From: a virus
Virus record (IMG/VR): IMGVR_UViG_3300042691_016433
Location: 1-24,520 of that record
Strand: one strand, 5' to 3'
Length of the DNA: 24,520 bases
Both the position numbers and the translations under genes were made by a program. Below are positions 3,857 to 24,520 of this stretch, one piece after another. The stretch's first letter is position 1, and the number at the start of each line of letters is the position of its first letter. The notes below the pieces were generated by a model, which ran no database searches, was not told where the DNA came from, and was given only the letters and a program-made list of their open reading frames with translations.

Positions 3857-3871
3857 TCGGCTGATTTCTAG

Positions 3872-3997: not shown

Positions 3998-4034
3998 GTC
4001 ACCCTCTCCAGAACCTAGACAAACTAGGGCAAAA

Positions 4035-4074: not shown

Positions 4075-4078
4075 CGAC

Positions 4079-4281
4079 TTATCCACAGGTAGTTGTGGAT
4101 AACCCTGTCAAGTCGACACGCCGATAGTTTACCAAATCGTTATAAAACTCCGGCGTTTTCTCGTAACCTCGTAACTTATCCACAGCCTGTGGACGACACG
4201 CGGGGCCCCAAAAAGTTATCCACAGCTTTTATACACAGTGTGGATAACCTTGGGGATAACTATTGTCAAGCCGACACGCCG
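4079..4281. other. DnaA-box cluster C, the densest
   Basis: Gene-free stretch (3998-4297). It has six boxes matching TTATNCACA: TTATCCACA at 4079-4087, 4176-4184 and 4216-4224 (+), its complement at 4094-4102 and 4239-4247 (-), and TTATACACA at 4229-4237 (+), plus a one-mismatch box at 4251-4259. Repeats TGTCAAGTCGACACGCCG (4106-4123) and TGTCAAGCCGACACGCCG (4264-4281) each follow a box within 3-4 bp. A third copy of the AT-rich TTATAAAAC...CGGCG repeat lies at 4127-4155. Best candidate for the core of a DnaA-dependent origin here. Confidence 0.65.
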
Positions 4282-4297
4282 AATCGTTACCAAATGT

Positions 4298-4366
4298 TTA
4301 CATGAAGATGATGAACATCAGGAACGAGAACAACGCGCCGAAGGCGAGGGCAGAGATGGGATCCAT
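4298..4366 (-). CDS. 22-aa single-span membrane micropeptide
   Basis: ATG at 4366 lies 5 nt after TAGGAGA, a good ribosome site, and 27 nt after a promoter block, so this tiny gene has a complete expression signal set of its own. The peptide is short polar (MDP) then hydrophobic (LAFGALFSFLMFIIFM), one membrane span. It could modulate a host membrane protein or act in lysis timing; nothing in the sequence decides this. It borders DnaA-box cluster C. Confidence 0.5.
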   Translation of the reverse strand: MDPISALAFGALFSFLMFIIFM

Positions 4367-4393
4367 TTTGTCTCCTATTGTTGGTGTGTGATT

Positions 4394-4415
4394 ATCATAG
4401 CACGAGGGTCAGACA
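4394..4415 (-). promoter_or_regulatory. TGTCAGACCC-type promoter block for the 22-aa peptide
   Basis: TGTCTGACCCTCGTGC then TATGAT, 27 nt before the start at 4366; one substitution in the core. The upstream gene's stop codon (4416-4418) abuts it. Confidence 0.65.
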
Positions 4416-4601
4416 CTACCGAACCCAAGTCGGGTCAGTAGGGTCTACGGAGCAAGCCTCATAGAAACGGTCAAAATCAAACGCGTCATTTGTAGTTGCT
4501 AACGCCTTAGCAAGGTCTACCGCGATAGTGGTCTTGCTATTCGCGTCAAGTGATGAACAGGCGACCGCGTTAGCGATTAGGGCGAAGGATTTTCTAGTCA
4601 T
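4416..4601 (-). CDS. Small conserved-type phage protein
   Basis: A 61-aa protein from ATG at 4601, preceded by AGAAAGAAG about 7 nt upstream. It begins MTRKSFALIANAVACSS and continues with a helix (VDLAKALATTNDAFDFDRFYEAC). The pattern of a basic N-terminus, a helix with ANA, then FDxDRFxEAC is one I recall from many small uncharacterised proteins in phages of unrelated hosts. Their role is not known. Single gene with its own promoter block. Confidence 0.75.
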   Translation of the reverse strand: MTRKSFALIANAVACSSLDANSKTTIAVDLAKALATTNDAFDFDRFYEACSVDPTDPTWVR

Positions 4602-4631
4602 TGTGTATCTTCTTTCTGTTGGTGTGATTAC

Positions 4632-4653
4632 ATTGTAGCACGAGGGTCTGACA
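4632..4653 (-). promoter_or_regulatory. TGTCAGACCC promoter block for the 61-aa gene
   Basis: TGTCAGACCCTCGTGC then TACAAT, 30 nt before the start at 4601. Confidence 0.7.
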
Positions 4654-4660
4654 GTCCTTG

Positions 4661-4688
4661 CCCGAGGATTACGAGATCGGGTCTCGGG
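4661..4688. repeat. Covarying hairpin, copy 5, with alternative 3' arm
   Basis: CCCGAG, loop GATTACGAG, ATCGGG gives five pairs plus one mismatch. A second arm, CTCGGG at 4683-4688, would pair perfectly with the same 5' arm, so two alternative hairpins are possible. Flanked by CTTG like the other copies. Confidence 0.5.
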
Positions 4689-4693
4689 TATTC

Positions 4694-4930
4694 TTAGGGC
4701 TTGTATCCAAATCCTACGATGTTCACCTTATCTAGCACGATGACATCGCCACCCTCTAGGGCTACCGTGTAGGCGTCCTCTAGATTTTTGTAAGTACCTA
4801 GAACCTTGCCTAGTTCATTGTACCCTCTACCGAAAGAGTAGAGCCTACAAGGGAAGGTCTTTCCGATGATGTTCAGAGGGTCATTGCCAAACATGTTGGT
4901 GTTTGGGATTACGTTCATGTAGTCGTTCAT
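4694..4930 (-). CDS. Small hypothetical protein
   Basis: A 78-aa protein from ATG at 4930; the leader is a run of GAAAGAAA repeats with a weak ribosome site (AGAAAGA). N-terminus MNDYMNVIPNTNMFGNDPLN, then LYSFGRGYNELGKVLGTYKN and a C-terminal strand pair VIVLDKVNIVGF. Probably a small alpha/beta protein; no family recognised. The reading frame is clean and has its own promoter block, with hairpin copy 6 upstream. Confidence 0.68.
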   Translation of the reverse strand: MNDYMNVIPNTNMFGNDPLNIIGKTFPCRLYSFGRGYNELGKVLGTYKNLEDAYTVALEGGDVIVLDKVNIVGFGYKP

Positions 4931-4953
4931 TGTCTTTCTTCTTTCTTTCTTTC

Positions 4954-4975
4954 ATCATACCACTATGGTCTGACA
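4954..4975 (-). promoter_or_regulatory. TGTCAGACCC-type promoter block for the 78-aa gene
   Basis: TGTCAGACCATAGTGG then TATGAT, 23 nt before the start at 4930; one substitution in the core. Confidence 0.68.
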
Positions 4976-4982
4976 CTCCTTG

Positions 4983-5003
4983 CCCTAGGGTTAGGCTCTA
5001 GGG
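4983..5003. repeat. Covarying 6-bp/9-nt hairpin, copy 6
   Basis: CCCTAG, loop GGTTAGGCT, CTAGGG, preceded by CTTG. Lies between the stop of the 51-aa gene and the next promoter block. Confidence 0.6.
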
Positions 5004-5015
5004 TAGCCGGTATGC

Positions 5016-5171
5016 CTAAGACACTTTTAGTTCATCGCTAAGTGCTTTACGGATAGCACCGTGTAGCGAACGAACGAGATACATAGGGTAGGTGTAAACA
5101 CTACCGCTGTTCAGGGTGACTACCCATAGGCGCTCGGAACCGAGTCGCTGTACAGACTGTACATTGTTCAT
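5016..5171 (-). CDS. Small hypothetical protein, KTSC-like
   Basis: A 51-aa protein from ATG at 5171 with AGGAGAAAGAC just upstream. It starts MNNVQSVQRLGSERLWVVTL and contains LNSGSVYTYPMYLVRSLHGA. The pattern of two strands followed by a Tyr-rich turn (VYTYP) and a helix recalls the small KTSC domain (strand, strand, YxYxxVP, helix), but the match is loose. Own promoter block, with a GGACA/CRP-like composite upstream. It is the last gene of the repeat-promoter arm. Confidence 0.65.
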   Translation of the reverse strand: MNNVQSVQRLGSERLWVVTLNSGSVYTYPMYLVRSLHGAIRKALSDELKVS

Positions 5172-5199
5172 TGTCTTTCTCCTTTCTTTCTATGTTCAT

Positions 5200-5221
5200 A
5201 GACTATCACGAGGGTCTGACA
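5200..5221 (-). promoter_or_regulatory. TGTCAGACCC promoter block for the 51-aa gene at 5171
   Basis: TGTCAGACCCTCGTGA then TAGTCT (a poorer -10 in the usual place), 28 nt before the start. Confidence 0.62.
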
Positions 5222-5484: not shown

Positions 5485-5655
5485 CTATTCTTCTTGTTCT
5501 GCTAATGATGGTGGTGGCCCTATAAGATTTCCTTGCTTATGTAGCTCTATTAGAGCTTTTTTGTCACCATCTGGGCCTATGAGCAATAAATCGTATATTC
5601 TAGATAGCTGAATATACATAGCTAAAATTATGTCGTCTCTGTCGTCTGGTGTCAT
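5485..5655 (-). CDS. Small hypothetical protein with leaderless-type start
   Basis: A 56-aa frame from ATG at 5655, N-terminus MTPDDRDDIILAMYIQLSRI, then YDLLLIGPDGDKKALIELHK and a short acidic end. It is a helical, acidic protein. The start has no clear ribosome site; instead TGCTAAAAT (extended -10, hexamer at 5663-5668) ends 7 nt before the ATG, as in leaderless actinobacterial genes. It lies apart from both the repeat-promoter arm and the lysozyme-ThyX operon. I recall similar short proteins with an IGPDG motif in actinophages but cannot name a family. Confidence 0.6.
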   Translation of the reverse strand: MTPDDRDDIILAMYIQLSRIYDLLLIGPDGDKKALIELHKQGNLIGPPPSLAEQEE

Positions 5656-5693
5656 AGCTCTAATTTTAGCATATTTTTAAAAATCGGGGGGAC

Positions 5694-10400: not shown

Positions 10401-10428
10401 TTGCTTTACAGCCCCTGCGTGATATAAT
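10401..10428 (+). promoter_or_regulatory. Promoter of the fibre gene block
   Basis: TTGCTT (10401-10406), 16-nt spacer, consensus TATAAT (10423-10428), 24 nt before the TTG start at 10453. It lies 3 bp past the RNR stop, so the fibre block can be transcribed independently. Confidence 0.6.
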
Positions 10429-10452
10429 TGAAAAAAAGTCTGGAGGGCTACT

Positions 10453-10812
10453 TTGCCTATTTTTCATAAAAACTGGGAAGTTATTCCTGGCGAATCATTG
10501 AATTTTAACATTGATTATCGCGAGGGAGACCAGCTTGATCCAGATAATCTCACTCCAATTAATCTAACTAATTATACGGTTGTTCTTAAGGTAACCAAAA
10601 GAGGTGTTACCGCCCTAGAACTTACAGAGCCGACCGATATTTATGTTGACAACGCAGAGGGACATATTGAAATAAGTATATCTCCTTCTAACATTGCGTT
10701 AATCACAGATTCTCAACCGGTAAGTTATGCCGTTTATATTTATAATGATAACGATGTCAATGATAGATATGCTATTCTCCGTGGTCGAATTAAGGTGACC
10801 ACAAGTGCCTAG
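10453..10812 (+). CDS. Small beta-rich baseplate/fibre-associated protein
   Basis: A 119-aa protein that starts with TTG at 10453, fixed by GGAGGG five bases upstream. It has an all-beta pattern: [14 protein letters not shown], then [34 protein letters not shown] and [11 protein letters not shown]...GRIKVTTS. This resembles the immunoglobulin-like N-terminal domain of baseplate upper proteins (BppU type), where a G-x-hydrophobic run is followed by [10 protein letters not shown] and a closing GRIKV strand. It overlaps the following fibre gene by 8 nt, so it is likely an adaptor or partner that holds the fibre on the virion. The family call is by pattern only. Confidence 0.68.
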
Positions 10813-12868
10813 CAATCCGCAAGACACTGTTATTATTGTTTCAGAGAGACCTATTTATACCGGCTCGCAGTTTAGTGGTAGTACTGGGCCCACTGGCCCC
10901 TCTGGTGCAACTGGGCCACAAGGACCCGCCAACGGCCCAACTGGACCAACTGGACTTAATGGTGCCACTGGTGCGACTGGCGCGACTGGACCTCAAGGTA
11001 CAGCCGGAACCTCTGGTTCAGCTGGTGCGACTGGACCAACCGGAAATACCGGTCCACAAGGAACTGCTGGAGCAAATGGTTCTACAGGCGCAACAGGTTC
11101 TACTGGTTCTACAGGAGCTACTGGCGCAACCGGAAGTGGATCTAGCGTGCTTGAGGCTAATGGAATTATGGGCCAAGCGGTATCTAGTGATCCAATTGTT
11201 ATGTCTTCGCCTCCTACAGTATCCGTTATATCCGACACTGGCGCTACAACCATTGCGGGTGCAACACGTCGTCTGCCATCGCGTGACGGTGCAGACTTTA
11301 CCTATCTGGGTGCAACATACGCTAACGTCGGAACTGTTGGCTCTTACACGAACTGCTACAGGCAAACTGGTTTAACTATTGCTAATACCGTCGGTCAGAT
11401 TGGCAACCTCCTGCGCTTTGAGTTTGAGACTGACGCTGACCAACTAGAAATCTTAGTGCGTTCGGAGGATTCAACCCACGCTAAGTATCGCCTATGGGTA
11501 GATGGCCAACTAGTTACTGCATCTGAATCTACAGTCATTGGATCCTCCACATCCTGGCGTCGGATTAAGATTGTCTTTGCTGACGCAACTAATCGCCGCA
11601 TAACGTTTGAGGGCCAAGAGTTAACCTTTGGTGGCATCTTCGCTCTACCCACTCGCACTACATGGCCAACGTCCCGTGATATTGGGCCGAAGGTTATTGT
11701 CGTGGGAGACTCCTACGGGACATCTTTTGACACTGACGTTAAGTGGATCTGGGACTCGTTTGCAGTTGTTGCCGGTCGTTTATTGAATTGGAATATTAAT
11801 CCTTCCTTTGTTTCCGGTACTGGCTATGTTGAAACCGGCTATGGCGCGGGTGAATCAACTTACGGCGCAAGGTTTGCTACTGATGTTGCAGCACTCACCC
11901 CGGACATTGTTGTGTTTACTGGTGGCTTGAACGATAATGCGATAAGCCCGCTAAGCACTGTTCAGAGCGCTATTACGTCATTGTTTGCGGCAGCTAAGAC
12001 CGCGTTACCATCGGCGCAGTTCTTTGTCCTGTCCCCGTTCCGCCCTACCGACACTTACTACACCAGCCTTAACACTATCGCGGGCTACTTGTATGCGCAG
12101 TCCCTGGCTAATGGGTTTAACTTTATTGGTACACCTATTGAATACATCTCTGGTACCGGTACAGTGGCGGCACCTACGGGCGTGGGTAACTCAGACTTTT
12201 ACACACTCGCAGACACTTATCACCTAAATCCGGCGGGTTACGAATACCTAGGACGCCGTCTGGCTTCTGATATTCAGGACACGTCACGCGACTATTGGGC
12301 CACTAATCGTCTCAGCACAATGTCTGCAAGTAAGCGCGGTCTTGTTCCCGCGCCCGCCGCCTCCCCCTCTGCTACTAAGTATCTAACCGAGACCGGTACA
12401 TGGGCTACTGTAAGCGCAACTGGTGGAACTTCCATAAGTGGAAATATAATCAAAGCCGTTAGAGCAACTAAAACAAATACACAAACAGGTATAACCGACC
12501 TAAACTATATAACATTTAACGCCGAAGACTATACAGACCTTGCCACCCTACACTCAACATCTACAAATAATGAAAGATTTAAGGCACCTACTACTGGTAG
12601 ATATAGACTCACTGCTCAGGTTTCTGTTTTTAACATTACTTCACCAAGTGGTCTAATTCTTGGTATAGATAAAAATACTGACGGTAACTTTATTTATCAA
12701 CAAACTGCTGGTGCTGCCTACTCACTAACTGCTGCAATTTTTCAAGCAACCACTGGTTGGGTGCAGTTGAATGCAAATGATTATCTATCTATCGCAATAT
12801 ATACAGACGATGCTTCCGTTGATATAGTAAACGCCTCAACTTGGGCATGCTTTGAGCAGTTAACATGA
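10805..12868 (+). CDS. Tail fibre: collagen-like stalk, SGNH hydrolase, C1q-like head
   Basis: A 687-aa protein from GTG at 10805. Domains in order: an N-terminal docking-type peptide with [12 protein letters not shown] (9-20), shared with the next fibre; a collagen-like Gly-X-Y stalk (25-112), rich in GPTG and GATG; a beta region (about 115-290); an SGNH hydrolase (about 295-495) with GDSY at 301-304 (Ser303), GGLND at 373-377 (Asn376) and DTYH at 470-473 (Asp470, His473), the full catalytic set; a KRGLVPAP hinge (510-517); and a C1q/TNF-like jelly-roll (about 545-687) with [15 protein letters not shown]. The hydrolase probably removes acetyl or acyl groups from host surface glycans during adsorption. 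The hydrolase segment looks more GC-rich than its flanks, suggesting domain exchange. Confidence 0.85.
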
Positions 12869-12889
12869 TAAAATTGAGAGTGATGACTT

Positions 12890-15052
12890 ATGCCAACTAA
12901 AAGAGTAGTTATTGTATCAGAGAGGCCTGTCTATAGCGGTACCGCCCGCGGACCCATTGGTGTAACTGGACCTATTGGTGCAACTGGAGCAACGGGAGCT
13001 CAAGGAATTCAGGGGATTCAGGGTGTTACCGGACCAACCGGACCCATTGGACCTACTGGCGCTCAGGGAATACAAGGTATACAAGGAATTCAAGGTGTCA
13101 CTGGAAATACCGGTCCTACCGGTCCACAGGGAATTCAAGGAATTCAAGGTATACAAGGTATTCAAGGAATAACTGGCCCAACAGGAGCCACTGGATCACA
13201 AGGAATTCAAGGAGTTACTGGAAATACAGGTATTCAGGGTTCAACTGGCTCAACTGGTTCTACTGGTTCTGCTGGAGCCACTGGAGCTATAGGTCAAACA
13301 GGAGCTACCGGTGCTATAGGAGCTACCGGGGCAACTGGTTCTGCTGGAGCATCCGCTGCTCTTTCTTGGACGTACAGAGTAGGCTTAACTGGTGGCCCAG
13401 GAGATAGAGATCCAGGTTTTGATTATGTAAGTTTTGTGGGGAATGACCCAGATACAGCTACTCAAATTTTAGTTGATGATAATCCAGTTCTAGAGGATAG
13501 TATTCACAATGTATTACTTAGCGTTGAAAAAGGCTATTTAACTCTAAGAAGTCAGAGCAATCCTGCAAATTTCTTTACGTATCGAATAAATTCTAATCAG
13601 AATGGCACAGCTGGGGCTGGTTCTTATGTAATCTTTAATGTAACTAAAATAGATGCATACAGCTTACTTGTTGATGAAGAGTTAGTCACCCTGTCACTTT
13701 CAGTGCAAGGTCCTACGGGTCCTACGGGAGCAACCGGCGCCAACTCAACAGTCGCTGGTCCAACTGGCGCAACTGGACCGACAGGTCTAGCTGGCGCAAC
13801 AGGGGCCACAGGCCCCGATGGTACGGCTGGTACAGCCGGTGTTGCTGGCGCAACTGGACCGACAGGTCTGACTGGCGCAACAGGGGCCACAGGCCCCGAT
13901 GGTACGGCTGGTACAGCCGGTGTTGCTGGCGCAACTGGACCGACAGGTCTGACTGGCGCAACAGGGGCCACGGGGGCTACCGGAGACATTGGCCCGACTG
14001 GCCCGTCATATCAATTCGGAGACCCAATAAGACTTTATGTTAGAAATCCCGGCGGGCCAGGTTCGACAACACTTCCGAAGGGAGCGATTGTCTATACTTC
14101 TGGTGCCAACGGCGACCACGTACAGGTAACACTGGCACTAGCAAGTAACGACCTAACCTCTGCACGTACAGTTGGATACGTAGAGGCAGATATTGCAGCC
14201 GGTACAGATGGATACATTATTATTGAAGGATATTTAACTGGAATAGATACTACAGGAACTAGTGCCGGGGACATTGTATATCTTTCACCAACCACTCCTG
14301 GGACCTGGACAACCACAAAACCCTACGCTCCCAATCACCTTGTTTACGTCGGTGTAATAGTTAGGGCAAACGTCTCTAATGGCTCCATATACGTAAAGAT
14401 TCAAAACGGTTACGAACTGGATGAAATTCACGATGTTCTGATTACTTCGCCACAGGTTGGGCAGGTTCTTACATATAGCGTTACTGGTTCCACTGGGATA
14501 TGGATTAATGGTCCTACTCCTACCGGCCCAACGGGTCCTACTGGCTTAAGTGTAACTGGGCCAACTGGTCCAACTGGGCTTACTGGCCAGACAGGACCCA
14601 GCGGTCCAACAGGCGCAACATCAACAGTTGCTGGACCTACTGGTCCAACAGGGGCTACAGGGGCAACTGGCACTGGATCATCTGGTGGTTCAGTCTCCTT
14701 CGGCATCGAAGGAATTCTTACAGCAGGTGATGGTGGAAATAAACTTCGCATATATAACGACTCTGGATCATCTAGAACTATTACATCTGTAAGGGCATCG
14801 GTTAATACCGCCCCTACTGGGACAACGATTATTGTTGATGTCAAAAAGGATGGAACTAGTATATTTACTCCAGCGACCGCCGGAACGAGGCCGACAATTG
14901 CAATATCGGGAAATACTAATAAAACTACATCTTTTTCTACTGCTGCCGGTAGCACAACTTGGGCCGACGCATCCTACTTAACAATTAATCTTGACCAGGT
15001 AGGTAGCACTATTGCGGGGGCAGACCTAATTGTGACGGTAACGTACTCCTAA
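12890..15052 (+). CDS. Tail fibre with three collagen-like stalks
   Basis: A 720-aa protein from ATG at 12890; the ribosome site is weak (GAGAG) and TGATAAAAT lies about 15-20 nt upstream. Domains: docking-type peptide [12 protein letters not shown] (6-17); first collagen stalk (21-155) with long GIQGIQG runs; a beta domain (158-272); second stalk (274-372) containing an 81-bp tandem duplication; a common phage-fibre beta domain (378-515) ending in [11 protein letters not shown]; third stalk (541-598); and a C-terminal domain (600-720) with a YNDSG...[10 protein letters not shown] core. The C-terminal domain is shared with the 456-aa protein at 15800. No hydrolase motif. A trimeric receptor-binding fibre is the likely role. 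Confidence 0.82.
13766..13972 (+). repeat. 81-bp tandem repeat in the second collagen stalk
   Basis: Units at 13766-13846 and 13847-13927 differ only at the two codons CTA GCT versus CTG ACT region, and a partial third copy runs to about 13972. Each unit encodes nine Gly-X-Y triplets. Near identity at DNA level means a recent duplication. Confidence 0.85.
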
Positions 15053-15756
15053 TGGCTATCACAAGATATAGATTAAATGATAACCCGGTGGGCACAGCAC
15101 TAAAGGCAGATCAAAGTGGGTATTATGCATTTCAAGTTACAACTGAGCATTCTGGTGTCGCTGGTGTAACAACGCCAATACCTAAAGAAGGTCAAAGATG
15201 TAGGGCTGTTACTGGCTTAACCGGAACATTTACGGCTGATTTAGTTACTACCACAGACTATCCACTATATACATATGGATTTCTAGATTTTTATTTTTAT
15301 AATTCTTCCGCTGCGAATACTGATTGGAGGATCTACCTACTTGCTGGATACAACGACTATATACCCGCAGAAAGTTATCAGTGGGCGTGGATAAAACAAT
15401 CAACAAATGAAGTTATCGTATCTTCATATGATGGAGCCAGTTATGCTGAAGTGAGCCTGGGGGCAGGCAACGTTCCAAGAGACAAGTGGTCTAGAATAGT
15501 AGTAAATCTTGGCATTGATTATGGAGGCGGATTTTGGGGGCTTGCAAACAAAGTCAGTGTATTTAAGGGTACAAATATAAACGGAACAGTACCAGATTAT
15601 TCAGACACTACTCAAACTGGGTTTAGCACAACACCGTATTACGTAGTTATAGGTCAAACCGGCGGAGAGGCTGTATCTCAAGTGGGTGGCTTTATAGACG
15701 ATGTAATATTTAGTGATTCAGTAATAGTTAGAAAAAAGCCGTTTGTAATTGGTTAA
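15052..15756 (+). CDS. Concanavalin/LamG-like fibre-associated protein 1
   Basis: A 234-aa protein whose ATG overlaps the preceding stop (TAATG). It starts [15 protein letters not shown] and continues with strands typical of a concanavalin-like sandwich: DWRIYLLAGYNDYIP, DKWSRIVVNLGIDYG, KVSVFKGTNINGTVPDYSD and the closing GGFIDDVIFSDSVIV. It is a paralogue of the 226-aa product at 17170: the same MAxxRYxxN start, FQ, QGTFTG-like region, VF(K/T)G(T)N and IDD(V/L) end. Each copy follows a gene with the same C-terminal fibre domain. It probably binds sugars on the host or caps the fibre. No catalytic motif seen. Confidence 0.72.
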   Translation: MAITRYRLNDNPVGTALKADQSGYYAFQVTTEHSGVAGVTTPIPKEGQRCRAVTGLTGTFTADLVTTTDYPLYTYGFLDFYFYNSSAANTDWRIYLLAGYNDYIPAESYQWAWIKQSTNEVIVSSYDGASYAEVSLGAGNVPRDKWSRIVVNLGIDYGGGFWGLANKVSVFKGTNINGTVPDYSDTTQTGFSTTPYYVVIGQTGGEAVSQVGGFIDDVIFSDSVIVRKKPFVIG

Positions 15757-15799
15757 ATATATTTTTATATGATAAAATAAATATTAAAGAAGGAGAGTT

Positions 15800-17170
15800 A
15801 TGAGTGCAGAAATTGCTGGAGACGCTGTATTCCAGTCGCGAGTTCAATCAGCAATGGTTGCAAAGGCTTATACTTTTTTATCTGTTCAATCAGAAACAAA
15901 TCAAACGTATATAAAGAGAAAAAGACTTGCAGACTCAATTATTAGTGATAGTAGAGGAAAGGTTGTGTCTGCTTCGTGGGCTGTTGCAAACACGCTATCT
16001 GCTGATTTTTCAGGGACCCAATCTGATATTTCTGACCAACAGATAACAAATGCTATTAACTCTACCTGGGATGCCCTGGCTGGAGTAGCTCCTGGAGATG
16101 AATTAGTTTCTAGTTTACCCCCCACTATACAAAGTATTCTAGATATGCAAGCGGAAATTGATAATATAGAGCTTACCGCTGGGGTAACAGGTAATACAGG
16201 GAACACAGGCAGCCAGGGGCCCGTTGGTGCTACTGGTGGGACCGGACCGATTGGAAGCACTGGCCCACAGGGTACCGCTGGAACAAGCGGAAGTACTGGG
16301 CCCACCGGTCCAAGTGGCCCAACTGGGGCAACTGGCGTTGGCACAACTGGTCCTACAGGAACAACAAATGTTCAGCCAGATACACAGTTGGGCAATTTTG
16401 CCTTTTATACAGAAACAACTGGTTTTCCATCCAGCCTACCAGCACAGGCCGCTGCGTTTGCAATAAATAGTTCAACCGCTTCTTCAGCTACAACATTAAC
16501 TCTAAATAGTGGTGCAATTGGCCTATTGTCTGCTGATGGAAAAAGTGTAATAACTAACTTGGTTCCAGGCGATATATTTTTAATTAGATCTACAGTTACT
16601 AAAACAAAATTTCTTAAAGTTAAGGTTGTTGGAACACCAGTTGATCCACTAGCATCAGATGGAACATACAATAGCCTAGGATACAATATTCCAATTATTG
16701 TAATGAGTTCTTCTGGATTTCCGGTTGCGTTGTACGAAGGATGTACAGTAACTAAGATGCAGTCTTCTAACTCAAAACCCCAGATTACTTTTTCTTTAGC
16801 TGGTGTTGATTTAACAGTTGGATCTTCCCCTGGCACCAATGGCACCTATGATAATAAAGTTAGGTGGTATAACGACACGGGGGTTCCAATAGTAATTCAG
16901 TCTATAAGGGCTTCTGTTACAACTCCACCAACTGGATCTGCTGCAATCATAGATGTTTCAAAAAATATTAACGACTCTGGCTCATCGCTATTTTCCTCTA
17001 CATCGACTATGCCAACCATTGCTGTAAATGGCTACACTGCAACATCTAGCACATTTACAAGTAGGGCCGTGAGCCAGCTTGCCGCCGGGGACTATCTTAC
17101 ATTTTCAATAAGGCAAAAGGGTAGCTCGACCGCCGGTAAAGATCTAACAGTAACAATCTGGTACGCATAA
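15800..17170 (+). CDS. Collagen-like virion protein with FQSRV N-terminal domain
   Basis: A 456-aa protein from ATG at 15800 with AAGGAGAG upstream and TGATAAAAT before that. Residues 1-110 form a helical domain ([18 protein letters not shown], then RKRLADSII, then [15 protein letters not shown]) that also exists alone as the 132-aa protein at 17860. Residues 131-190 are a collagen-like stalk. After a linker comes a C-terminal domain (about 335-456) with [16 protein letters not shown] and PTIAVNG, homologous to the end of the 720-aa fibre. I recall FQSRV...WNALAG domains among virion genes of actinophages, perhaps a tail or head attachment piece. So it could link fibres to the particle. Confidence 0.75.
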
Positions 17171-17850
17171 TGGCACAGGCAAGGTATAAATTTAATCAAT
17201 CATCATTTACAGCTGGAGCTCCTACACCCGACGAAGGGTCTGGAGTAGGTTTTCAGTTTTATGCTTCTGCCGTCGGCGTAAACTCATCGCCGGCCCCATA
17301 CGAGGGAAGCTATTGTCTAAGAGTTAGTGCTGGTTCCGGCTACGCCGCAGGTGTGCAGGGAACTTTTACAGGCTGGGACATGTTCGTATACCTACCCACT
17401 GGCTTTGGAGACTTTACACCAGTTATAGGTGATGCAAGCTACTACGGAACACTTCTGGAGTGGTGTGCAATAAAGCCAAACGGATCATTTACAATTGAAT
17501 TTTATTATAACGATTATGCTGGAGAAGAAATTTATCAGCTAAAGGCTTCTAGTGCTGCCGGGGTTGTTCCATTAAATCAATGGTTTAGGCTCAGAGTTTT
17601 ATGCAATCCGTATAGCCCTACAGATGTCCAGGTATTTACTGGAAACAATATTTTAGGAACCACACCAACCGCACAGATTTCTACAAGCTCATGGCTCGGC
17701 GGAAGTTGGGGGCAGTACCTTCAAGGTTCTAGTGCTGCCACTGGCCCATCTTATATAGATGATTTATATATATCAAATACTATATCTTATCCAACCCGAG
17801 GTGAAGAGGCTTCTACAGCAAGACTATCATGTGGTATAATTACTACCTAA
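17170..17850 (+). CDS. Concanavalin/LamG-like fibre-associated protein 2
   Basis: A 226-aa paralogue of the 234-aa protein at 15052, again with an ATG overlapping the preceding stop (TAATG). Starts [16 protein letters not shown]; shows VGFQFYASAVGV, YEGSYCLRVSAG, GVQGTFTGWDM, NQWFRLRVLCNPYS, VQVFTGNNILGTTP and SYIDDLYISNTISYP. It has the expected strand pattern of a concanavalin-like sandwich. The pair of paralogues with matching upstream fibre ends shows duplication of a two-gene module. Sugar binding is the likely role, by fold only. Confidence 0.72.
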   Translation: MAQARYKFNQSSFTAGAPTPDEGSGVGFQFYASAVGVNSSPAPYEGSYCLRVSAGSGYAAGVQGTFTGWDMFVYLPTGFGDFTPVIGDASYYGTLLEWCAIKPNGSFTIEFYYNDYAGEEIYQLKASSAAGVVPLNQWFRLRVLCNPYSPTDVQVFTGNNILGTTPTAQISTSSWLGGSWGQYLQGSSAATGPSYIDDLYISNTISYPTRGEEASTARLSCGIITT

Positions 17851-17859
17851 GGAGAAAAA

Positions 17860-18258
17860 ATGTCATTATCTAATTATGAAAAAGCTGCCCGACTATGCTC
17901 AGTCGACTCTTTTCAATCCCGCGTGCGAGGCATGCTTGTGAGCACAGCTCTATCTATTAAGTCTGAGCCATTTCAAACAATAGAGGGCCCAAATAATACT
18001 ACACCAATCAGTGCAATATCTTTTAAGCGCTCATCCCTAGCAGATCATGTTCTGGGTAATACTGCCTTTCAAATTGAAAGATTTTCTTATATTGTAGCTC
18101 TGAGTCAGCCAGCAATAGACCTTTATTCAGTCCAGTTTGATGAAGACACTACCCAAAAAGCCTTTGAGTGTGCCCCACTTATCACAGATGAGGTTATTCA
18201 GGGAGTTATCTCTGACTGCTGGAACGGCCTTGCTGGCGTAAACTCGTGGGACCAATAA
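17860..18258 (+). CDS. Stand-alone FQSRV-domain protein
   Basis: A 132-aa protein from ATG at 17860 behind AAGGAG. SFQSRVRGMLVSTALSI (16-32), KRSSLADHVL, ERFSYIVALS, then ITDEVIQGVISDCWNGLAGV align with residues 11-96 of the 456-aa collagen-like protein. It is mostly helical with one or two short strands and has no collagen stalk. Virion attachment or assembly is plausible from context, not shown. Confidence 0.7.
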   Translation: MSLSNYEKAARLCSVDSFQSRVRGMLVSTALSIKSEPFQTIEGPNNTTPISAISFKRSSLADHVLGNTAFQIERFSYIVALSQPAIDLYSVQFDEDTTQKAFECAPLITDEVIQGVISDCWNGLAGVNSWDQ

Positions 18259-18300
18259 TATAAATATTGCTTATTGCATACATTATAACTAACAGAATGG

Positions 18301-18312
18301 TATGATACATCT
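18301..18312 (+). promoter_or_regulatory. Leaderless-type promoter of the glycosyltransferase
   Basis: TGGTATGAT extended -10 with hexamer at 18301-18306, then 6 nt, then ATG at 18313. If transcription starts at the A of ATG the hexamer is at -12 to -7. No ribosome site is present. Confidence 0.6.
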
Positions 18313-19383
18313 ATGAAAATAGCCGTATATACAATTGCGCTCAATGAAGCCAAGCATGTCAAAAGATGGGCCAAGTCTGCCGAAGATGCAGATTATAGAT
18401 TAATTCTAGATACCGGCTCAAAGGATAATACTGTCGTTACCGCTGAGAAAGCGGGAGTCACAGTTGTCACCAAAAAGTTTAAGCAGTTCAAATTCGATGA
18501 AGCTCGTAATGCTGCTGTTGACGCACTCCCAGAAGACATTGATTGGTGCATTAGTCTTGACGCCGATGAGGTTTTGCATGAGGGCTGGAGAGAGCTTTTA
18601 GAAAGAGATATTGCAAACCAGCCAAATGCTACACAGTTTAGTTTTAATTTTATTAATAGCCGTTTTCCGGACGGTACACCGGCACAACAATGGGCTCGAC
18701 CAATGATTCACCCACGTCATAATGCACGATGGAAGTGGCCAATCCATGAAATTATTGAGGCTGATCCATGTGTTATGGGTACAACTCGTGTAGTGGCCGA
18801 GCATTTTCCAGATAGAACAAAGCCTCGTACATACCTGCCTATGCTAAAGCAGGCAACCAGGGATCTTCCAGATGATCCTAGAATGTCATTCTATTACGGC
18901 CGAGAGCTTTGTTATAATGAAAAGTGGGACTTGGCAGAAAAAGAACTTAGAAGATGTCTCACCCTTAACGGATGGGCATATGAAAAGTCTGAGACAATGG
19001 TCTGGCTAGCTAGATGTAATAAGTCGGAAGCTGAACAGTGGCTTCTTAAGGCATGCGCTGAAACACCAGATAGACGCGAACCATTTGTTGAGCTTGCTGA
19101 ACTTTACTTTAATGAAGAGCGATGGGAACCGGCATTGGGTATGGCTCAAAGAGCTATTTCTATGCCTAATAAAAACCTTTCATACATTAGTGAAGATAAA
19201 GCGTGGGGATTCCTTCCACATCACATTGCCGCTATTTGTGCGTATACTATCAAGGCCCCAGAGCTTGCATTGCATCATGGACAGATTGCATCAGACCTAT
19301 TACCAGATGATGAAAACTTAAAGAAAAATCTTGAGTGGTATGCTAAGGGCTATGTCGAGGAAAAGGCGGAAGAGGCGTACTGA
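18313..19383 (+). CDS. Family 2 glycosyltransferase with TPR-like tail
   Basis: A 356-aa protein. The GT-A fold is clear: MKIAVYTIALNEAKHVKRWA at the start, LILDTGSKDNT (30-40), DEARNAAVD (62-70) and the metal-binding LDADE (82-86), followed by ARWKWPIHEII. From about residue 185 it has helical repeats resembling TPR (YYGRELCYNEKWDLAEKELRR, PFVELAELYFNEERWEPALG, ALHHGQIASDLLPDD). It would transfer a sugar from a nucleotide donor. The target may be host wall, phage DNA or virion protein. Its position between fibre genes, and the Thr-rich GPT/GAT collagen triplets next to it, favour virion fibre glycosylation, as known for the GPT collagen of Bacillus BclA. Confidence 0.85.
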   Translation: MKIAVYTIALNEAKHVKRWAKSAEDADYRLILDTGSKDNTVVTAEKAGVTVVTKKFKQFKFDEARNAAVDALPEDIDWCISLDADEVLHEGWRELLERDIANQPNATQFSFNFINSRFPDGTPAQQWARPMIHPRHNARWKWPIHEIIEADPCVMGTTRVVAEHFPDRTKPRTYLPMLKQATRDLPDDPRMSFYYGRELCYNEKWDLAEKELRRCLTLNGWAYEKSETMVWLARCNKSEAEQWLLKACAETPDRREPFVELAELYFNEERWEPALGMAQRAISMPNKNLSYISEDKAWGFLPHHIAAICAYTIKAPELALHHGQIASDLLPDDENLKKNLEWYAKGYVEEKAEEAY

Positions 19384-19386
19384 TCA

Positions 19387-19414
19387 TTGCATTTTTGCCG
19401 TAAAATGATATAAT
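19387..19414 (+). promoter_or_regulatory. Leaderless-type promoter of the 892-aa tail protein
   Basis: TTGCAT (19387-19392), 16-nt spacer, TATAAT (19409-19414), then 6 nt to ATG at 19421. No ribosome site. Confidence 0.65.
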
Positions 19415-19420
19415 TCATAT

Positions 19421-22099
19421 ATGGCGTATGCTGATTATGTTCTTTCAAAAGGTCCCGTAACATATTTAACTCTGTCTGGTGCAAGCGGTGACTTAAACAT
19501 AACGGGCCGGGGAACCAGTGCTACCGGGATTTCTGGTTATACCGCCGGAACGTTTCCACAGATAGTTCCTGGCTATGAATGTGGAACAATAGCAGACTCC
19601 TCAGTTGTAGAAAATATAATTGGTTGCCTAACTGAAATGTCAAGGCAAAAGGCATATACCGTTGAGATATGGGCAAAGCTAAAGGTCAACGCGTTTTCTG
19701 GATACTATTCCACGGCATATGATGTAATTTCGACGGTCGATGGTAATTGCAAGATATATGTAGAAAACTCCTTTGTTACGGTAATGTTAACAGCACTGGA
19801 CGGCACTGTATATAGGGCCAGGGTGAAGCACGCCGACTTTGACGAAAGTATGCACATAGTCTTTGTGTATTCTGCCTCGCAGTTCTATGTTGCTGTAAAT
19901 GGAGTAAAAGGGGATACAGAAGTTTTTCCATACAATAAAACAATTAAAGATTTATCTGGAAATTTAGTTGTATCGAGTACAAATATGTTTCTATCAAATC
20001 TGGCAATATACTCCAGAGAGCTTGGTATAGATGAAATTCAATCTAACTATGCTGTCGGAAAGAGTAAGCTAGATAAGGCCTCTATGGTTAGACAGCAGGG
20101 CGGTAGTTTTTACACACTATCTAAAGAAGGGGCAAACGTAAAGCACTCCAATAAGATTAATTATGAGGATTTTTCAGTAGGAAATAATAGAAACTTAGAA
20201 GTCAGTGCTAATAAATTAAAAAACTTTGAGTATAGTTCAATTATCATACGGGACTCCGAGGGGTTTGAGATTAACCCAATATACTCGTCAGCTACCGGTA
20301 TATCAGTTGGATCTATGTCGGTAACCGGAATACTTCAATCACTAACTGGTGGATACAGATCCTTGCTTGCAACTGGAAACAGTTTTACAACAGGTTCTAC
20401 AGTTATCCTGTCAGATTTTTCACCATCATCATTTAATGAAGAGGTGGTAATTTCATCTGTATCTGGAAATCAAATTCAATACCAATCAACAAATGACAGT
20501 GTTGTAACGGATGCAACTGGAAATGTTCAGTGTATCGCACACGCACTGATACCATCGGTTCCTGGGCTCAGTAATGTCGGCGGCTTTATCGGGATAAGAT
20601 TAATACCGAACTACCTTGTTAAAGAGATACTTACGATATACTCTAAAACTTCATTAAAGTCTATGACATGGAGCTTAACGGGCACGACAGGCATGATTAA
20701 CTTAACGTCTAAAACTTATAATTCATCTGGAGATATAACCTCAACGAATAGTTATAATTATGCCTCTCCAGTTTCGTCTGGGTTGGCGACAGACTTCTGG
20801 GTGTTAATGGATTCCACAGGGGTTAGAATCTCTACGACTGGAAATACATTTAATCAATACTCTTCCAGCGACTACGTTTACGATACAGTCGCAATCAACG
20901 ACCAAACACAAGTAATACTTGGCGCAGACTATGAGTATAGAACCACATCTACGTCAACATTCCCAATATCTAAAATATGGGTGGGCAGTGATATTCCAAC
21001 AACAGTAACTTTTAGCAACCTTAAGTTGACTACATTTAATAACTATATGTATGACTTTTCTTCCAGTTTAGATAAATCGGCTAAGACCCGTGGGGAGTGG
21101 ACGTATACGGTATCGGTTCCAACTGAGGGTACATATAATGGAACGTATATAGATTATGATATATCACCAGACAGCCTATCTAACGTGCAGATTAAATATA
21201 ACTCTGATGCCTCATATAGTGAGTGTAGACCTGGAAAGTTTTTACCATCAATGCCATATTCTGGAACACTTGGTGCGACGGGAGTGCCCTTAACAGTACA
21301 GGTTGTGCTTGAAACATCTAATGTTGAAAAAAATGTCCCAGAGTTTAGTAATGCGGACATATTTGTATATGAGGACAACACACTAGTTGGAGTAGACGAC
21401 CTTGGGTCCGCTACACTTAGTGGATCAAATGCTTCTGTAAGAAATAAATACTTCCTGCCAGGAGAGAATCGAAAAAGATTAAATACTACATTTATCAACA
21501 ATAATTACTTAAAAATTCCCGCTCCAACAGGTGGCTCCCTAGCCCACCAATCAGTAGAGCTTACCTTTGCATACGAGGGGTCGCCAAATAATAATTCTGT
21601 TATATGCTCTTCCTTTAATGGATCTAATAATGTGTATATATCAAACTCCGGCCTGGTCACCGTATCTGGATGGCCAACGACTACGTCATATTTAAACGGG
21701 TCTCCGATTGGCTCCGGAGCCACCGCACAAACTAATTCAACAAACCACCTGCTCATTGTTGGGTCCACCGGAACCACAGCGCCATTATATTTAAATGCTA
21801 GTGTCACTGGTGGTGGAGCCACAGGATATTTTTCATCTACTACCGGGTATTCTGGGGCAACAGCTGGAGTACAAACGTCATATGGCTATCTCGCAACGTG
21901 GCCGTTTGCATTGACAGGGGCAACCGGTGGAACGGGACAAACTGGCCAAACTAAGGATACCTTAGATTCACGCAGAGGTTATATATCTCAACAGTTAAAT
22001 ACTTCTGGTGAACAAATTAATATATCTAGTCCAACAGGTGCCACAGCGGTAGAGGTAATGGTAAATGTCACGCCTTGGCAGAGTTTTTCGTCAGCGTAG
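19421..22099 (+). CDS. Large LamG-type minor tail protein
   Basis: An 892-aa protein. Residues about 77-215 form a LamG/concanavalin-like domain (YTVEIWAKLKVNAFSGYY, then MHIVFVYSASQFYVAVNGVK, then FLSNLAIYSRELGIDEIQSN). A second such domain lies near 715-840 (YLKIPAPTGG, SVELTFAYEG, NNVYISNSGLVTV). The middle is beta-rich with scattered TG(I/V/S) motifs. There is no collagen stalk or catalytic motif. The length, repeated sugar-binding folds and position among fibre and head genes fit a minor tail or baseplate protein. Confidence 0.75.
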   Translation: MAYADYVLSKGPVTYLTLSGASGDLNITGRGTSATGISGYTAGTFPQIVPGYECGTIADSSVVENIIGCLTEMSRQKAYTVEIWAKLKVNAFSGYYSTAYDVISTVDGNCKIYVENSFVTVMLTALDGTVYRARVKHADFDESMHIVFVYSASQFYVAVNGVKGDTEVFPYNKTIKDLSGNLVVSSTNMFLSNLAIYSRELGIDEIQSNYAVGKSKLDKASMVRQQGGSFYTLSKEGANVKHSNKINYEDFSVGNNRNLEVSANKLKNFEYSSIIIRDSEGFEINPIYSSATGISVGSMSVTGILQSLTGGYRSLLATGNSFTTGSTVILSDFSPSSFNEEVVISSVSGNQIQYQSTNDSVVTDATGNVQCIAHALIPSVPGLSNVGGFIGIRLIPNYLVKEILTIYSKTSLKSMTWSLTGTTGMINLTSKTYNSSGDITSTNSYNYASPVSSGLATDFWVLMDSTGVRISTTGNTFNQYSSSDYVYDTVAINDQTQVILGADYEYRTTSTSTFPISKIWVGSDIPTTVTFSNLKLTTFNNYMYDFSSSLDKSAKTRGEWTYTVSVPTEGTYNGTYIDYDISPDSLSNVQIKYNSDASYSECRPGKFLPSMPYSGTLGATGVPLTVQVVLETSNVEKNVPEFSNADIFVYEDNTLVGVDDLGSATLSGSNASVRNKYFLPGENRKRLNTTFINNNYLKIPAPTGGSLAHQSVELTFAYEGSPNNNSVICSSFNGSNNVYISNSGLVTVSGWPTTTSYLNGSPIGSGATAQTNSTNHLLIVGSTGTTAPLYLNASVTGGGATGYFSSTTGYSGATAGVQTSYGYLATWPFALTGATGGTGQTGQTKDTLDSRRGYISQQLNTSGEQINISSPTGATAVEVMVNVTPWQSFSSA

Positions 22100-22109
22100 T
22101 GTACAAAAT

Positions 22110-22138
22110 TTGGCGTTCAGGCAGTAAAATGGTACAAT
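22110..22138 (+). promoter_or_regulatory. Leaderless-type promoter before the 116-aa gene and portal
   Basis: TTGGCG (22110-22115), 17-nt spacer, extended -10 TGGTACAAT with hexamer at 22133-22138, then 7 nt to ATG at 22146. The spacing is canonical. Confidence 0.65.
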
Positions 22139-22145
22139 TATATAC

Positions 22146-22496
22146 ATGAATCCACCCGGAAGAGTGCCTAGAACGCGCGTAGTAGATCACACAATATATG
22201 GAGTCTATGTCTGGCAATTGCCTACTGGGCAGTATTTCGCAAATGATAATCAGGACATACTTAGTATAGCTTCTGTCAAGGGTGATATCGGCAAGATGGC
22301 TAAGCTCCAAAGAGCTGCCGCATATTGGGGACAACCAAATGGTGCCCCCGTATTTATGGCCGGTAACCGTAAAATTACACAAGAAGAATTCGACCATCAA
22401 TGGGAGCGACAACTCAATGGTGAACTAGCCGATGAGTATGATATTGGCGCTATTATGGATGAACTAAGGGGGCAAAAACAACATGGCAGCAATTGA
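22146..22496 (+). CDS. Hypothetical protein upstream of portal
   Basis: A 116-aa protein from ATG at 22146. Begins MNPPGRVPRTRVVDHTIYGV, then YVWQLPTGQYFANDNQDILS, GDIGKMAKLQRAAAYWGQPN and a charged helix (QEEFDHQWERQLNGELADEY). Its last 14 bases overlap the portal start, so the pair are coupled. The order (small protein, portal, protease) suggests a head-assembly role such as a scaffold or connector accessory. Family not recognised. Confidence 0.72.
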   Translation: MNPPGRVPRTRVVDHTIYGVYVWQLPTGQYFANDNQDILSIASVKGDIGKMAKLQRAAAYWGQPNGAPVFMAGNRKITQEEFDHQWERQLNGELADEYDIGAIMDELRGQKQHGSN

Positions 22497-24045
22497 GGCA
22501 TTTGATGATGATCGGGCACTCGAGGTAAGTTTGGGTGGGTATGACAGCTTTGGCGCAGATAACACCGACCTATTTGCGGTAAAAGGTGAATCCCTTAGAG
22601 ACTTAGGTGGAGTTAACTCTAATCTTAAAAGAAAGATTGGGCGGGAGATTTCTAAGGCATATACCGGCATGGGTGATGCTAAGACTAAAGCAACAGAGAT
22701 TTCATACTACTCGGCATATGACGCATTTGGAGTAGTTCTTCCACCGTATAACCTAGACTATCTAGCACAGGTATATGAGCTCAATGCAGCCCATTATGCA
22801 GCCTGTAACGCAAAGGTTTCAAATATTGTTGGACTTGGATTCAGCCTTATAACTACACCAGAGGTTACGGATAAGATTAATTCTGCCGAGTCGGAACAAC
22901 GTAAGCATAACATGAGGGCTAAGGTTGCTCGGGCAAAGACTAAGTTTATGTCCCTGCTAGACCAAATGAACTATGAAGACACTTTCCTAGAAGTTCTCCA
23001 AAAGGCTTGGATTGATTACGAGGCTACCGGAAATGGCTACATTGAAATTGGTCGTACTGCAACAGGAACAATTGGATACATTGGCCACGTTGCCTCTAGA
23101 ACAGTTAGAGTTCGTAGACTAAGAGATGGCTATGTTCAAATTGTTGGGGCAAAGTCGGTATTCTTTAGAAACTTCGGTGACACAACTACTAAAGATCCGA
23201 TTGGAATGGATTCAACTCCAAACGAACTTATTCATATAAAGAAGTATAGTCCTAGAAACACATACTATGGTGTTTCGGACATTGTTCCAGCAATGAAGGC
23301 CCTCGCAGGAGATGACTTCGCCCAACAGTTCAACCTAGACTACTTTGAGCACAAGGCTGCTCCAAGATACGTTATCGTAATTAAGGGAGCTTCTTTATCC
23401 ACGAGTGCTGAGAAGAAGATTCATGAGTTCTTTATGTCTAAGTTGAAGGGCAAGCACCATAGAAGCCTTTATATTCCACTTCCGGCAGACACCCCTGATT
23501 CCAAGGTTGATTTCAAGATGACGCCGGTAGAGGGTGGGATCCAGGACGGATCCTTTGACCAGTACCGCCAAACAAATAGAAATGATATTTTGATGGCACA
23601 CAGAGTCCCACTTTCTAAGGTTGGGCACTCAGATGGGCTGTCACTTGGTGGTGCTGCTGACGCAGACAAGGGCTTCAAGGAGCAGGTTACTAGGCCAGAG
23701 CAGGATAAGCTGGAAAAGAGACTGAACAGGATTGTTGCTGAGTTTACCGATATGTTTACCATGCAACTTAACGAGATGAGCCTTACCGATGAAGACAAGC
23801 AATCTCAAATTGAGGAGCGCCTGGTTCGCATGAAGATTAAGGTTCCTAACGAGTCTCGTGAGAAGCTGGGCCTCCCTCCAATGGAAGGCGGAGATCAAAC
23901 CGTAGATCTTAAATCTCAACAGGCAGCTGAACAGACAGCTCAAGCTATGAATTCTAGAACTAGAGATCAGGAAAGATCATCTCAGGCAACCGATGGTAAG
24001 AGTGAACCAAGAAACCCTAAAGGTCAAGGCAGGACTACTCAATAA
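22483..24045 (+). CDS. Phage portal protein
   Basis: A 520-aa protein forming the dodecameric portal through which DNA is packaged. Matches portal proteins of the PBSX/HK97-like group: ELNAAHYAACNAKVSNIVGL (98-117), WIDYEATGNGYIEIGR, the SRTVRVRRL strand, NELIHIKKYSPRNTYYGVSD, PAMKALAGDDFAQQFNLDYF and the FDQYRQTNRNDILMAHRVPL segment, all characteristic in order. The last 60 residues are Gln-rich and disordered. ATG at 22483 lies inside the preceding gene and is coupled to it. The prohead protease follows, the usual partner order. Confidence 0.92.
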   Translation: MAAIEAFDDDRALEVSLGGYDSFGADNTDLFAVKGESLRDLGGVNSNLKRKIGREISKAYTGMGDAKTKATEISYYSAYDAFGVVLPPYNLDYLAQVYELNAAHYAACNAKVSNIVGLGFSLITTPEVTDKINSAESEQRKHNMRAKVARAKTKFMSLLDQMNYEDTFLEVLQKAWIDYEATGNGYIEIGRTATGTIGYIGHVASRTVRVRRLRDGYVQIVGAKSVFFRNFGDTTTKDPIGMDSTPNELIHIKKYSPRNTYYGVSDIVPAMKALAGDDFAQQFNLDYFEHKAAPRYVIVIKGASLSTSAEKKIHEFFMSKLKGKHHRSLYIPLPADTPDSKVDFKMTPVEGGIQDGSFDQYRQTNRNDILMAHRVPLSKVGHSDGLSLGGAADADKGFKEQVTRPEQDKLEKRLNRIVAEFTDMFTMQLNEMSLTDEDKQSQIEERLVRMKIKVPNESREKLGLPPMEGGDQTVDLKSQQAAEQTAQAMNSRTRDQERSSQATDGKSEPRNPKGQGRTTQ

Positions 24046-24046
24046 T

Positions 24047-24075
24047 TTGCTTTTAGGTTAATAAAGCAATACTAT
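24047..24075 (+). promoter_or_regulatory. Promoter and inverted repeat before the protease gene
   Basis: TTGCTT (24047-24052), 17-nt spacer, TACTAT (24070-24075), 9 nt before the ATG at 24085. The same segment is an inverted repeat, TTGCTTT, 9 nt, AAAGCAA (24047-24069), so it may also be a weak hairpin after the portal gene. Confidence 0.45.
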
Positions 24076-24084
24076 TGTCATACT

Positions 24085-24520
24085 ATGGAAATCAGCAAAG
24101 CCAATTTTTCTACGACTGGTTCACGCATTGATATTAGCGTCCCCTTTTCCAAGGTGGATGCCTCCGCTAGAACGGTGTCAGGTTTCGCAACTCTTGACAA
24201 TGTAGACCGTCAAGGTGACCTTGTTTTGTCTAGCGCATCAACCCAAGCTTTTGAGAAGTTTCGCGGTAATCTTAGAGAGATGCACCAGAGCATTGCTGTT
24301 GGTAAAGTACTTTCCTTTACACAGGAAGAATTTTATGACCCAGAGACCGCTAAAATGTATAGCGGTATTTATGTCACCGCCTACGTTTCTACCGGAGCCC
24401 AGGCTACTTGGGAGAAGGTCCTCGACGGTACGTTGAGTGGATTCTCAATAGGTGGAGCTATTGATGACTCAGAGAATTTTTATGACCCAGAGCTCGAGAA
24501 GAGCATTAGAATTATTAAAG
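24085..24520 (+). CDS. Prohead protease, N-terminal part (cut by window edge)
   Basis: 145 codons of an open frame starting ATG at 24085; the C-terminus lies outside the window. The sequence fits the prohead (S78/XkdF-like) serine protease fold: SGFATLDNVDRQGDLVLSSA (32-51), REMHQSIAVGK with the likely catalytic His67, GIYVTAYVSTGAQATWEKVL, and LSGFSIGGAI with the likely catalytic Ser121. It would cleave scaffold and capsid proteins during head maturation. Its place directly after the portal supports the call. The third catalytic residue would lie beyond the window. Confidence 0.85.
   Translation, partial: MEISKANFSTTGSRIDISVPFSKVDASARTVSGFATLDNVDRQGDLVLSSASTQAFEKFRGNLREMHQSIAVGKVLSFTQEEFYDPETAKMYSGIYVTAYVSTGAQATWEKVLDGTLSGFSIGGAIDDSENFYDPELEKSIRIIK

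Follow-up and report, generated by a model that had tools for sequence, protein, structure and literature searches.

The 24,520 bases of IMG/VR virus record IMGVR_UViG_3300042691_016433, analysed here as a whole (the window), raise the question of how translation begins at genes whose ATG follows a −10 promoter hexamer almost directly and which have no evident ribosome-binding site. A preliminary description had placed such hexamers 6 nt before the starts at 18313 and 19421, 7 nt before 22146 and the minus-strand start 5655, and 9 nt before 24085, and all five distances are correct. Our results suggest that the three genes starting at 18313, 19421 and 22146 would be transcribed as leaderless mRNAs, that the head maturation protease gene at 24085 probably carries a leader of only 3 nt, and that the mode of initiation belongs to the individual gene.

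The window most probably represents a fragment from the genome of a large actinophage, with relatives among the phages of Streptomyces and Rhodococcus. Its portal protein matches 232 phage records (127 from Streptomyces; best identity 54%), its protease 137 (127 Streptomyces, 9 Rhodococcus and 1 Alicyclobacillus) and the 22146 protein 133 deposited records (127 Streptomyces and 6 Rhodococcus), and the hosts of the cultured relatives point to an actinobacterial host. Homologues of the 22146, portal and protease genes occur in the same order in Stanwilliamsviridae; however, this synteny is also found in Rhodococcus phages whose records do not name that family, and is not diagnostic of it.

Spacing between promoter and start codon

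Four of the five starts lie on the plus strand. An extended −10 element, TGG TATGAT (18298..18315, hexamer 18301-18306), ends 6 nt before the ATG of a family-2 glycosyltransferase gene (phrog_13126, 18313..19383; Pfam Glycos_transf_2), whose product aligns to its family from residue 1, thereby fixing the start codon. The following promoter (19387..19423) consists of a −35-like TTGCAT, 16 nt, TGA TATAAT (hexamer 19409-19414) and 6 nt before ATG 19421, where the gene for a probable LamG-like minor virion protein begins (19421..22099). This protein itself has no Pfam match, but its profile alignment to a Streptomyces-phage LamG-type protein runs from residue 1 (probability 94, E 1.6e-7), and a relative matches Laminin_G_3 at 6e-6, just under the gathering score. 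Upstream of 22146 (22110..22148), a −35-like TTGGCG, 17 nt, TGG TACAAT (hexamer 22133-22138) and 7 nt precede a phrog_9394 gene (22146..22496), of which residue 8 aligns to position 6 of the 107-position family profile; its start is leaderless-type in most relatives examined. The portal gene (22483..24045) overlaps it by 14 nt and has a Shine-Dalgarno (SD) pairing energy of −10.2 kcal/mol. At 24047..24087 a −35-like TTGCTT, 17 nt, TACTAT (24070-24075) and 9 nt lead to ATG 24085, the near-leaderless start of the protease gene (phrog_9427, 24085..24520), which aligns from residue 1 and runs off the window. TACTAT is a poorer hexamer that fails the strict −10 pattern, and an alternative, TATTGT (24073-24078), stands 6 nt from the same ATG. 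On the minus strand (5653..5671), TGC TAAAAT lies 7 nt before ATG 5655 of a leaderless-type gene of 56 amino acids. Homology supports all four plus-strand start codons.

A leaderless mRNA would be expected to have its −10 about 6–7 nt before the start, an ATG or GTG at that start and no SD in the would-be transcript. The spacing is found at 18313, 19421, 22146 and 5655, whereas 24085 offers only 9 nt, or 6 nt with a weak hexamer; all five genes start with ATG. The best SD pairing energies are −4.3 (18313), 0.0 (19421), −2.9 (22146), −0.1 (24085) and −1.7 kcal/mol (5655), and at 18313 and 22146 the pairing falls on the −10 or on bases before it, and so outside the would-be transcript. The absence of a ribosome site noted in the preliminary description is therefore borne out, in that none of the five predicted transcripts contains a strong SD.

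The spacing is far from random in this lineage. Ten records were compared, comprising six complete relatives, the window and three of its IMG/VR relatives, with open reading frames (ORFs) of at least 60 codons called without promoter information. In 50 of the 1371 ORFs a strict −10 stops precisely 6 nt short of the start, whereas the background at 10–40 nt predicts 5.9 for any one distance (P ~5e-29), and each complete relative contributes 6 to 9 such ORFs. Neither 7 nt (8 ORFs) nor 9 nt shows a significant excess overall. In the window alone the signal is modest, with a strict −10 at 6 or 7 nt in 3 of 31 ORFs against 0.27 expected (P 0.003).

Further properties of these hexamers were counted in seven records. 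The extended −10 motif TGn, which played no part in hexamer selection, precedes 34 of the 51 hexamers at 6 or 7 nt, compared with 26 of 102 at 14–30 nt. A −10 at 6 nt is found before 42 of 760 gene-start ATGs but only 80 of 28,286 other ATGs. Start codons at this spacing are ATG, GTG and TTG in 42, 2 and 1 cases, compared with 332, 60 and 77 in SD genes, so that 44 of 45 ORFs begin with RTG (R, purine). This is what the mycobacterial rule predicts, by which, in the available text of PMC4633059, any mRNA beginning with ATG or GTG is translated. The peak at 6 nt is absent from T4 of E. coli (1 of 250 ORFs) and from SPO1 of Bacillus (0 of 188), while the unrelated actinophage DSL-LC01 has two starts at 6 nt and two at 7 nt among 143 ORFs against a background of 0.6, although these counts are few.

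Conservation at individual genes

The start at 22146 is the most widely conserved. A −10 at 6 or 7 nt precedes its orthologue in all eight isolates examined (Muntaha, Genie2, Coruscant, Weasels2, Dorin, Trina, Annadreamy and Tomas), Tomas being counted only if its start is moved 15 nt upstream to an ATG in the same frame. In gene 50 of this phage (locus L016, 2647-2662) that ATG lies 6 nt after TACAAT, and the annotation probably places the start too far downstream by this amount; it is the only one of the eight isolates whose annotated start looks wrong. The same spacing is found in two near IMG/VR relatives, whose promoter is conserved, in 11 of 12 uncultured contigs that share a left-arm promoter box of the window (for three of them when the in-frame ATG two codons below the automatically called one is taken as the start), and in 50 of a further 62 unique uncultured relatives, with TGn in 49 of those 50. 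When any in-frame ATG or GTG within eight codons is allowed as the start, the proportion rises to 54 of 62, compared with 0 of 57 for capsid, 0 of 64 for portal and 9 of 71 for protease genes. All 50 rows with 6 or 7 nt have a pyrimidine before the ATG, as against 0.67 of capsid rows. The relatives form 17 clusters at 70% identity, of which 13 have a modal spacing of 6 or 7 nt, one of 8, one of 9 and two none.

The protease gene keeps a different distance. At least 562 relatives matched, with 80 loci listed, and a −10 at 8–10 nt is present in 62 of the 71 unique relatives compared. The protease rows collapse to five clusters at 70% identity, so the 62 are not independent events. The 45 nt before 24085 are identical in three relatives, and a fourth, which has TATTAT at 6 nt, shares 44 of them. 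In the isolates, the −10 lies at 9 nt in Weasels2, Trina and Dorin and at 6 nt in Muntaha, and a strict hexamer was not found in Annadreamy. A pyrimidine-purine step stands at −3 in 0.88 of 8 relatives with 8-nt spacing, 0.98 of 46 with 9 nt and 0.88 of 8 with 10 nt. Since RNA synthesis commonly begins at a purine some 7 nt downstream of the −10, this step makes a 3-nt leader the simplest reading of the protease mRNA and a probable one, judged from these alignments. The purine at −3 had also been considered as proof of the leader, but this argument is weakened by the SD-led capsid gene, which has A at −3 in 48 of 57 relatives. As a separate observation, stops interrupt the protease frame at 18936-19378 of IMG/VR contig G004 (loci L133 and L134).

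Conservation at the remaining starts is more varied. Two IMG/VR relatives have TATACT where the window has TATGAT before 18313, keeping the 6-nt gap and differing upstream of about −30. Of the 30 nt before 19421, all 30 are matched in one relative and 29 in another, although protein identity is only 40% and 68%. For the LamG-type gene upstream of the 22146 orthologue, the distance from the −10 is 6 nt in Coruscant, Genie2 and Tomas but 9 nt in Annadreamy. At 5655 conservation was for the most part rejected: a strict −10 stands 7 nt before the aligned start in only 1 of 12 homologues (L077), a second has one 9 nt before a far-upstream candidate, and the other ten have none at 5–10 nt. In L077, near 6086, the hexamer is TATAAT, and AGGAGG lies just upstream of it.

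Alternative explanations and the question of gene classes

A number of observations weigh against leaderless initiation and a 3-nt protease leader. The ten records are related, three of them being near the window, so that their counts are not independent, and the ORFs came from a simple length rule. Among the 22146 relatives, 12 of 62 do not show the strict hexamer at the usual 6 or 7 nt from the aligned start (its distance is 8 or 9 nt in two and 1 nt in three, and seven have none), 8 of 62 lack it even with flexible starts, and a pyrimidine-purine step at −3 or −4 occurs there too (0.67 of 12; 0.84 of 38). The 24085 hexamer is weak and ambiguous. Among protease relatives, 8 of 71 have a hexamer only at 6 or 7 nt and 1 of 71 none from 6 to 10 nt; only 12 of the 62 promoters have TGn; a strict −10 at 6 or 9 nt is found in only four of eight isolates; and no strict −10 is seen in Genie2, Coruscant or Tomas, whose protease gene overlaps the preceding one. 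The pyrimidine-purine step at −3, present in 0.86 of protease rows, is also present in 0.56 of capsid rows, and a pyrimidine likewise precedes the protease ATG in 0.86 of rows, so transcription could also start at that ATG itself. A generic sigma-70 scan of 17700-24300 returned 15 promoters against 16.4 in shuffles, and a generic terminator scan of the same interval listed none just before these starts.

The last point implies that longer read-through mRNAs could also cover these genes. The −10 elements could then be real while most protein came from read-in transcripts, by reinitiation after the preceding stop codon, which the short gaps to the preceding gene (54, 37, 46 and 39 nt before 18313, 19421, 22146 and 24085) and the lack of a listed terminator-like site between genes would favour. 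However, the gaps contain no strong SD, the conserved element is a promoter and not an SD, and in some relatives a hairpin seems, by eye, to end just before the promoter. We therefore regard this explanation as improbable.

The preliminary description went further, in proposing that leaderless-type starts run across the structural arm, that the left arm uses strong GAAAGGAG sites, and that two translation modes serve two gene classes. The left-arm statement largely stands: 16 of the 17 starts scored between 620 and 5171 have SD energies of −6.2 to −13.1 kcal/mol (row 3950 was scored one base off), the seventeenth, at 620, is probably a wrong start, and none of the 17 has a strict −10 at 6 or 7 nt. 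The literal GAAAGGAG, however, precedes only five of them, with variants before the remainder. The eight minus-strand starts at 5655-8078 have mixed SD energies (−1.7 to −9.3 kcal/mol). In the structural arm the geometry is real but its extent was overstated. Of the 12 plus-strand genes from 10453 to 24085, six have an SD (energy of −6.1 kcal/mol or lower), two are overlap-coupled and four are leaderless-type. The genes at 10453, 10805, 12890, 15052, 15800, 17170 and 17860 (10405..17860, plus strand) are SD-led or coupled, and those at 10453, 12890, 15800 and 17860 combine an SD with an extended −10 15–24 nt upstream.

The same mixture is found in the relatives. An SD precedes the capsid gene in every one of 57 unique relatives. 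At the portal gene, 15 of 64 have an SD with at least five matched bases, and no −10 is found within 20 nt. In the six complete relatives, leaderless-type starts (6 or 7 nt) are a minority everywhere, but they account for 26 of 177 ORFs near the portal (12 kb upstream to 20 kb downstream) as against 22 of 1128 elsewhere, an odds ratio of 8.7, with P <0.05 in five of the six genomes and 0.066 in Genie2. This bias, and the SD-led left arm, are what a strict division into leaderless structural and SD-led non-structural genes would predict. The six window genes with an SD, the invariably SD-led capsid gene, the 22 leaderless-type starts outside the portal module and the leaderless-type start at 5655, which is not a known structural gene, make so strict a rule very improbable; we reject it and retain the bias. 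Two initiation modes are nonetheless supported by the 6-nt peak, the extended −10, the initiator step and the conserved spacing, and the operative unit is the individual gene, not the gene class.

Across the whole window, a bare TGNTANNNT-N6-ATG occurs three times against 1.4 expected, which is not above shuffles, and the TGNTANNNT-type pattern with N7 or N9 spacing is likewise not above them. With these patterns and the promoter scan at background, the case depends on the placement of hexamers at gene starts and on the relatives. Chance, with AT-rich gaps before ATGs yielding −10-like hexamers, accords with this whole-window null, but it has a negligible claim in view of the sharp single-distance peak, the TGn enrichment, the conservation among orthologues and the controls (non-start ATGs, T4, SPO1, capsid and portal genes), and is in our view refuted for the lineage, less fully for 24085 and 5655 taken singly.

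Leaderless initiation from promoters belonging to the individual genes is the reading we prefer. The genes at 18313, 19421 and 22146 would each have an extended −10 promoter from which RNA synthesis starts on the A of the ATG, and an actinobacterial ribosome would begin at the 5′-terminal AUG of the resulting leaderless mRNA without an SD. At 24085 the promoter lies about 3 nt further back (in relatives it is a consensus TATAAT, mostly without TGn), probably leaving a 3-nt leader. The other genes would rely on a −10 15–30 nt upstream plus an SD, or on overlap coupling. The start mode would be a property of each gene, kept through the lineage, and the phage would exploit the leaderless ability of its host through extended −10 promoters, making these genes autonomous units. 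The transcript 5′ ends and the ribosome mechanism are what we infer from the sequences; on this basis the mRNAs of several virion genes should begin at or within a few nucleotides of the start codon. Taken whole, own-promoter leaderless starts, a protease leader of about 3 nt and a start mode set gene by gene form an account that we consider highly probable. A more tentative and rather unlikely extension is that the distance is a heritable setting of the amount of each head protein, with a 0-nt leader at 22146, a 3-nt leader (RNN-AUG) at the protease, a strong SD at the capsid and coupling at the portal, held across the Streptomyces, Rhodococcus and uncultured-host lineage, and with the 3-nt leader forming a distinct class weaker than a 5′ AUG.

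Neighbouring features and known systems

The same type of extended −10 is also found at SD-led genes of the left arm. Thirteen minus-strand copies of TGTCAGACCCTNGTGNTANNAT (at most three mismatches; 0.02 expected), a box fused to the −10, lie upstream of them at 616..5221; 12 have TGn before the −10 and nine a strict hexamer. In these nine, the −10 is 21–30 nt from the ATG with an SD between, giving predicted leaders of 15–24 nt. The exact box is found in 55 IMG/VR stretches, and 16 of 24 hand-picked contigs from these carry a related protease; the box could serve a large uncultured clade as an early promoter or an operator. In one left-arm promoter (3949-3984, minus strand), an ATG stands 6 nt after TAGAAT. 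By eye, it opens a frame of seven codons that spans the SD and closes with an ATGA overlapping the main start, and this may be a leaderless mini-cistron. A 33-nt hairpin-like repeat (family D4), possibly a terminator, is present in six copies at 2532-5010; four (2532, 3831, 4656 and 4978) are directly upstream of a minus-strand left-arm promoter box and two (3320 and 3579) are not. Several TTATCCACA-type motifs, which we take to be DnaA-box-like, were seen by eye among repeats containing GACACGC (families D5 and D8) at about 2010-4270, a possible replication origin. ThyX (6351-7247, minus strand) and a phage ribonucleotide reductase (8367-10397, plus strand) flank the switch in gene direction, and both occur in three box-bearing uncultured loci (L076, L092 and L113). 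Three tail-fibre-like genes with collagen-like repeats lie at 10805-17170 (by eye, with family matches checked for 15800 alone). An Rfam scan of the window gave no match.

Leaderless mRNA itself is ordinary in actinobacteria, and the phenomenon is of a known kind. The conservation of spacing gene by gene and the probable 3-nt protease leader look new within the literature searched: among the matches listed in the open-licence PMC literature, no paper evidently deals with leaderless starts in this phage family, and the words "leaderless" and "promoter" are absent from the main text of the Coruscant paper (PMC7650747) as available. Here the mode of translation appears tied to individual virion genes over great evolutionary distance through promoter position. 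A mycobacterial leader study omitted mRNAs with leaders of 1–14 nt because it was not known which of the two modes, leadered or leaderless, they follow (PMC7148126). The protease start, should its 3-nt leader be confirmed, would be a natural test of this gap, and the conserved spacing makes the question of how very short leaders work directly testable. Start codons in the 133 deposited records that bear the 22146 gene could also be revised with the help of the −10 position.

Stanwilliamsviridae and the Rhodococcus phages Weasels2, Trina and Dorin share the order 22146-portal-protease-capsid, as well as similar start modes for each gene. Their portal proteins are at most 54% identical to that of the window, and the five Streptomyces phages fetched and Trina, unlike the window, have an extra gene between portal and protease. 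The lambda cI mRNA is leaderless, and cI is likewise a phage gene with a 5′-terminal AUG, as predicted here; however, it is a single regulatory coliphage gene, not a conserved virion gene set. The finding of leaderless initiation in lambda is also noted in the available part of PMC3160421. A −10 directly before the ORF and a spacing requirement are shared with the Deinococcus-Thermus "-10 region adjacent to ORF" genes, but that system belongs to another phylum and concerns host genes rather than phage virion genes (PMC12340547). The closest likeness is to actinobacterial leaderless mRNAs, which, in the portions available of two studies and a survey (PMC3898074, PMC4633059 and PMC3160421), have the same TANNNT −10 about 12 bp before the start codon, an mRNA start at RTG, as predicted here, and no SD. 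In M. tuberculosis, about one in four genes with a primary start site is leaderless (PMC3898074). The phage genes differ from these in that TGn precedes only 7% of M. tuberculosis TANNNT promoters (PMC3898074), compared with 34 of 51 in the phage records, and in that leaderless genes of M. tuberculosis are depleted for growth functions (PMC3898074), whereas those of the phages are enriched near the portal.

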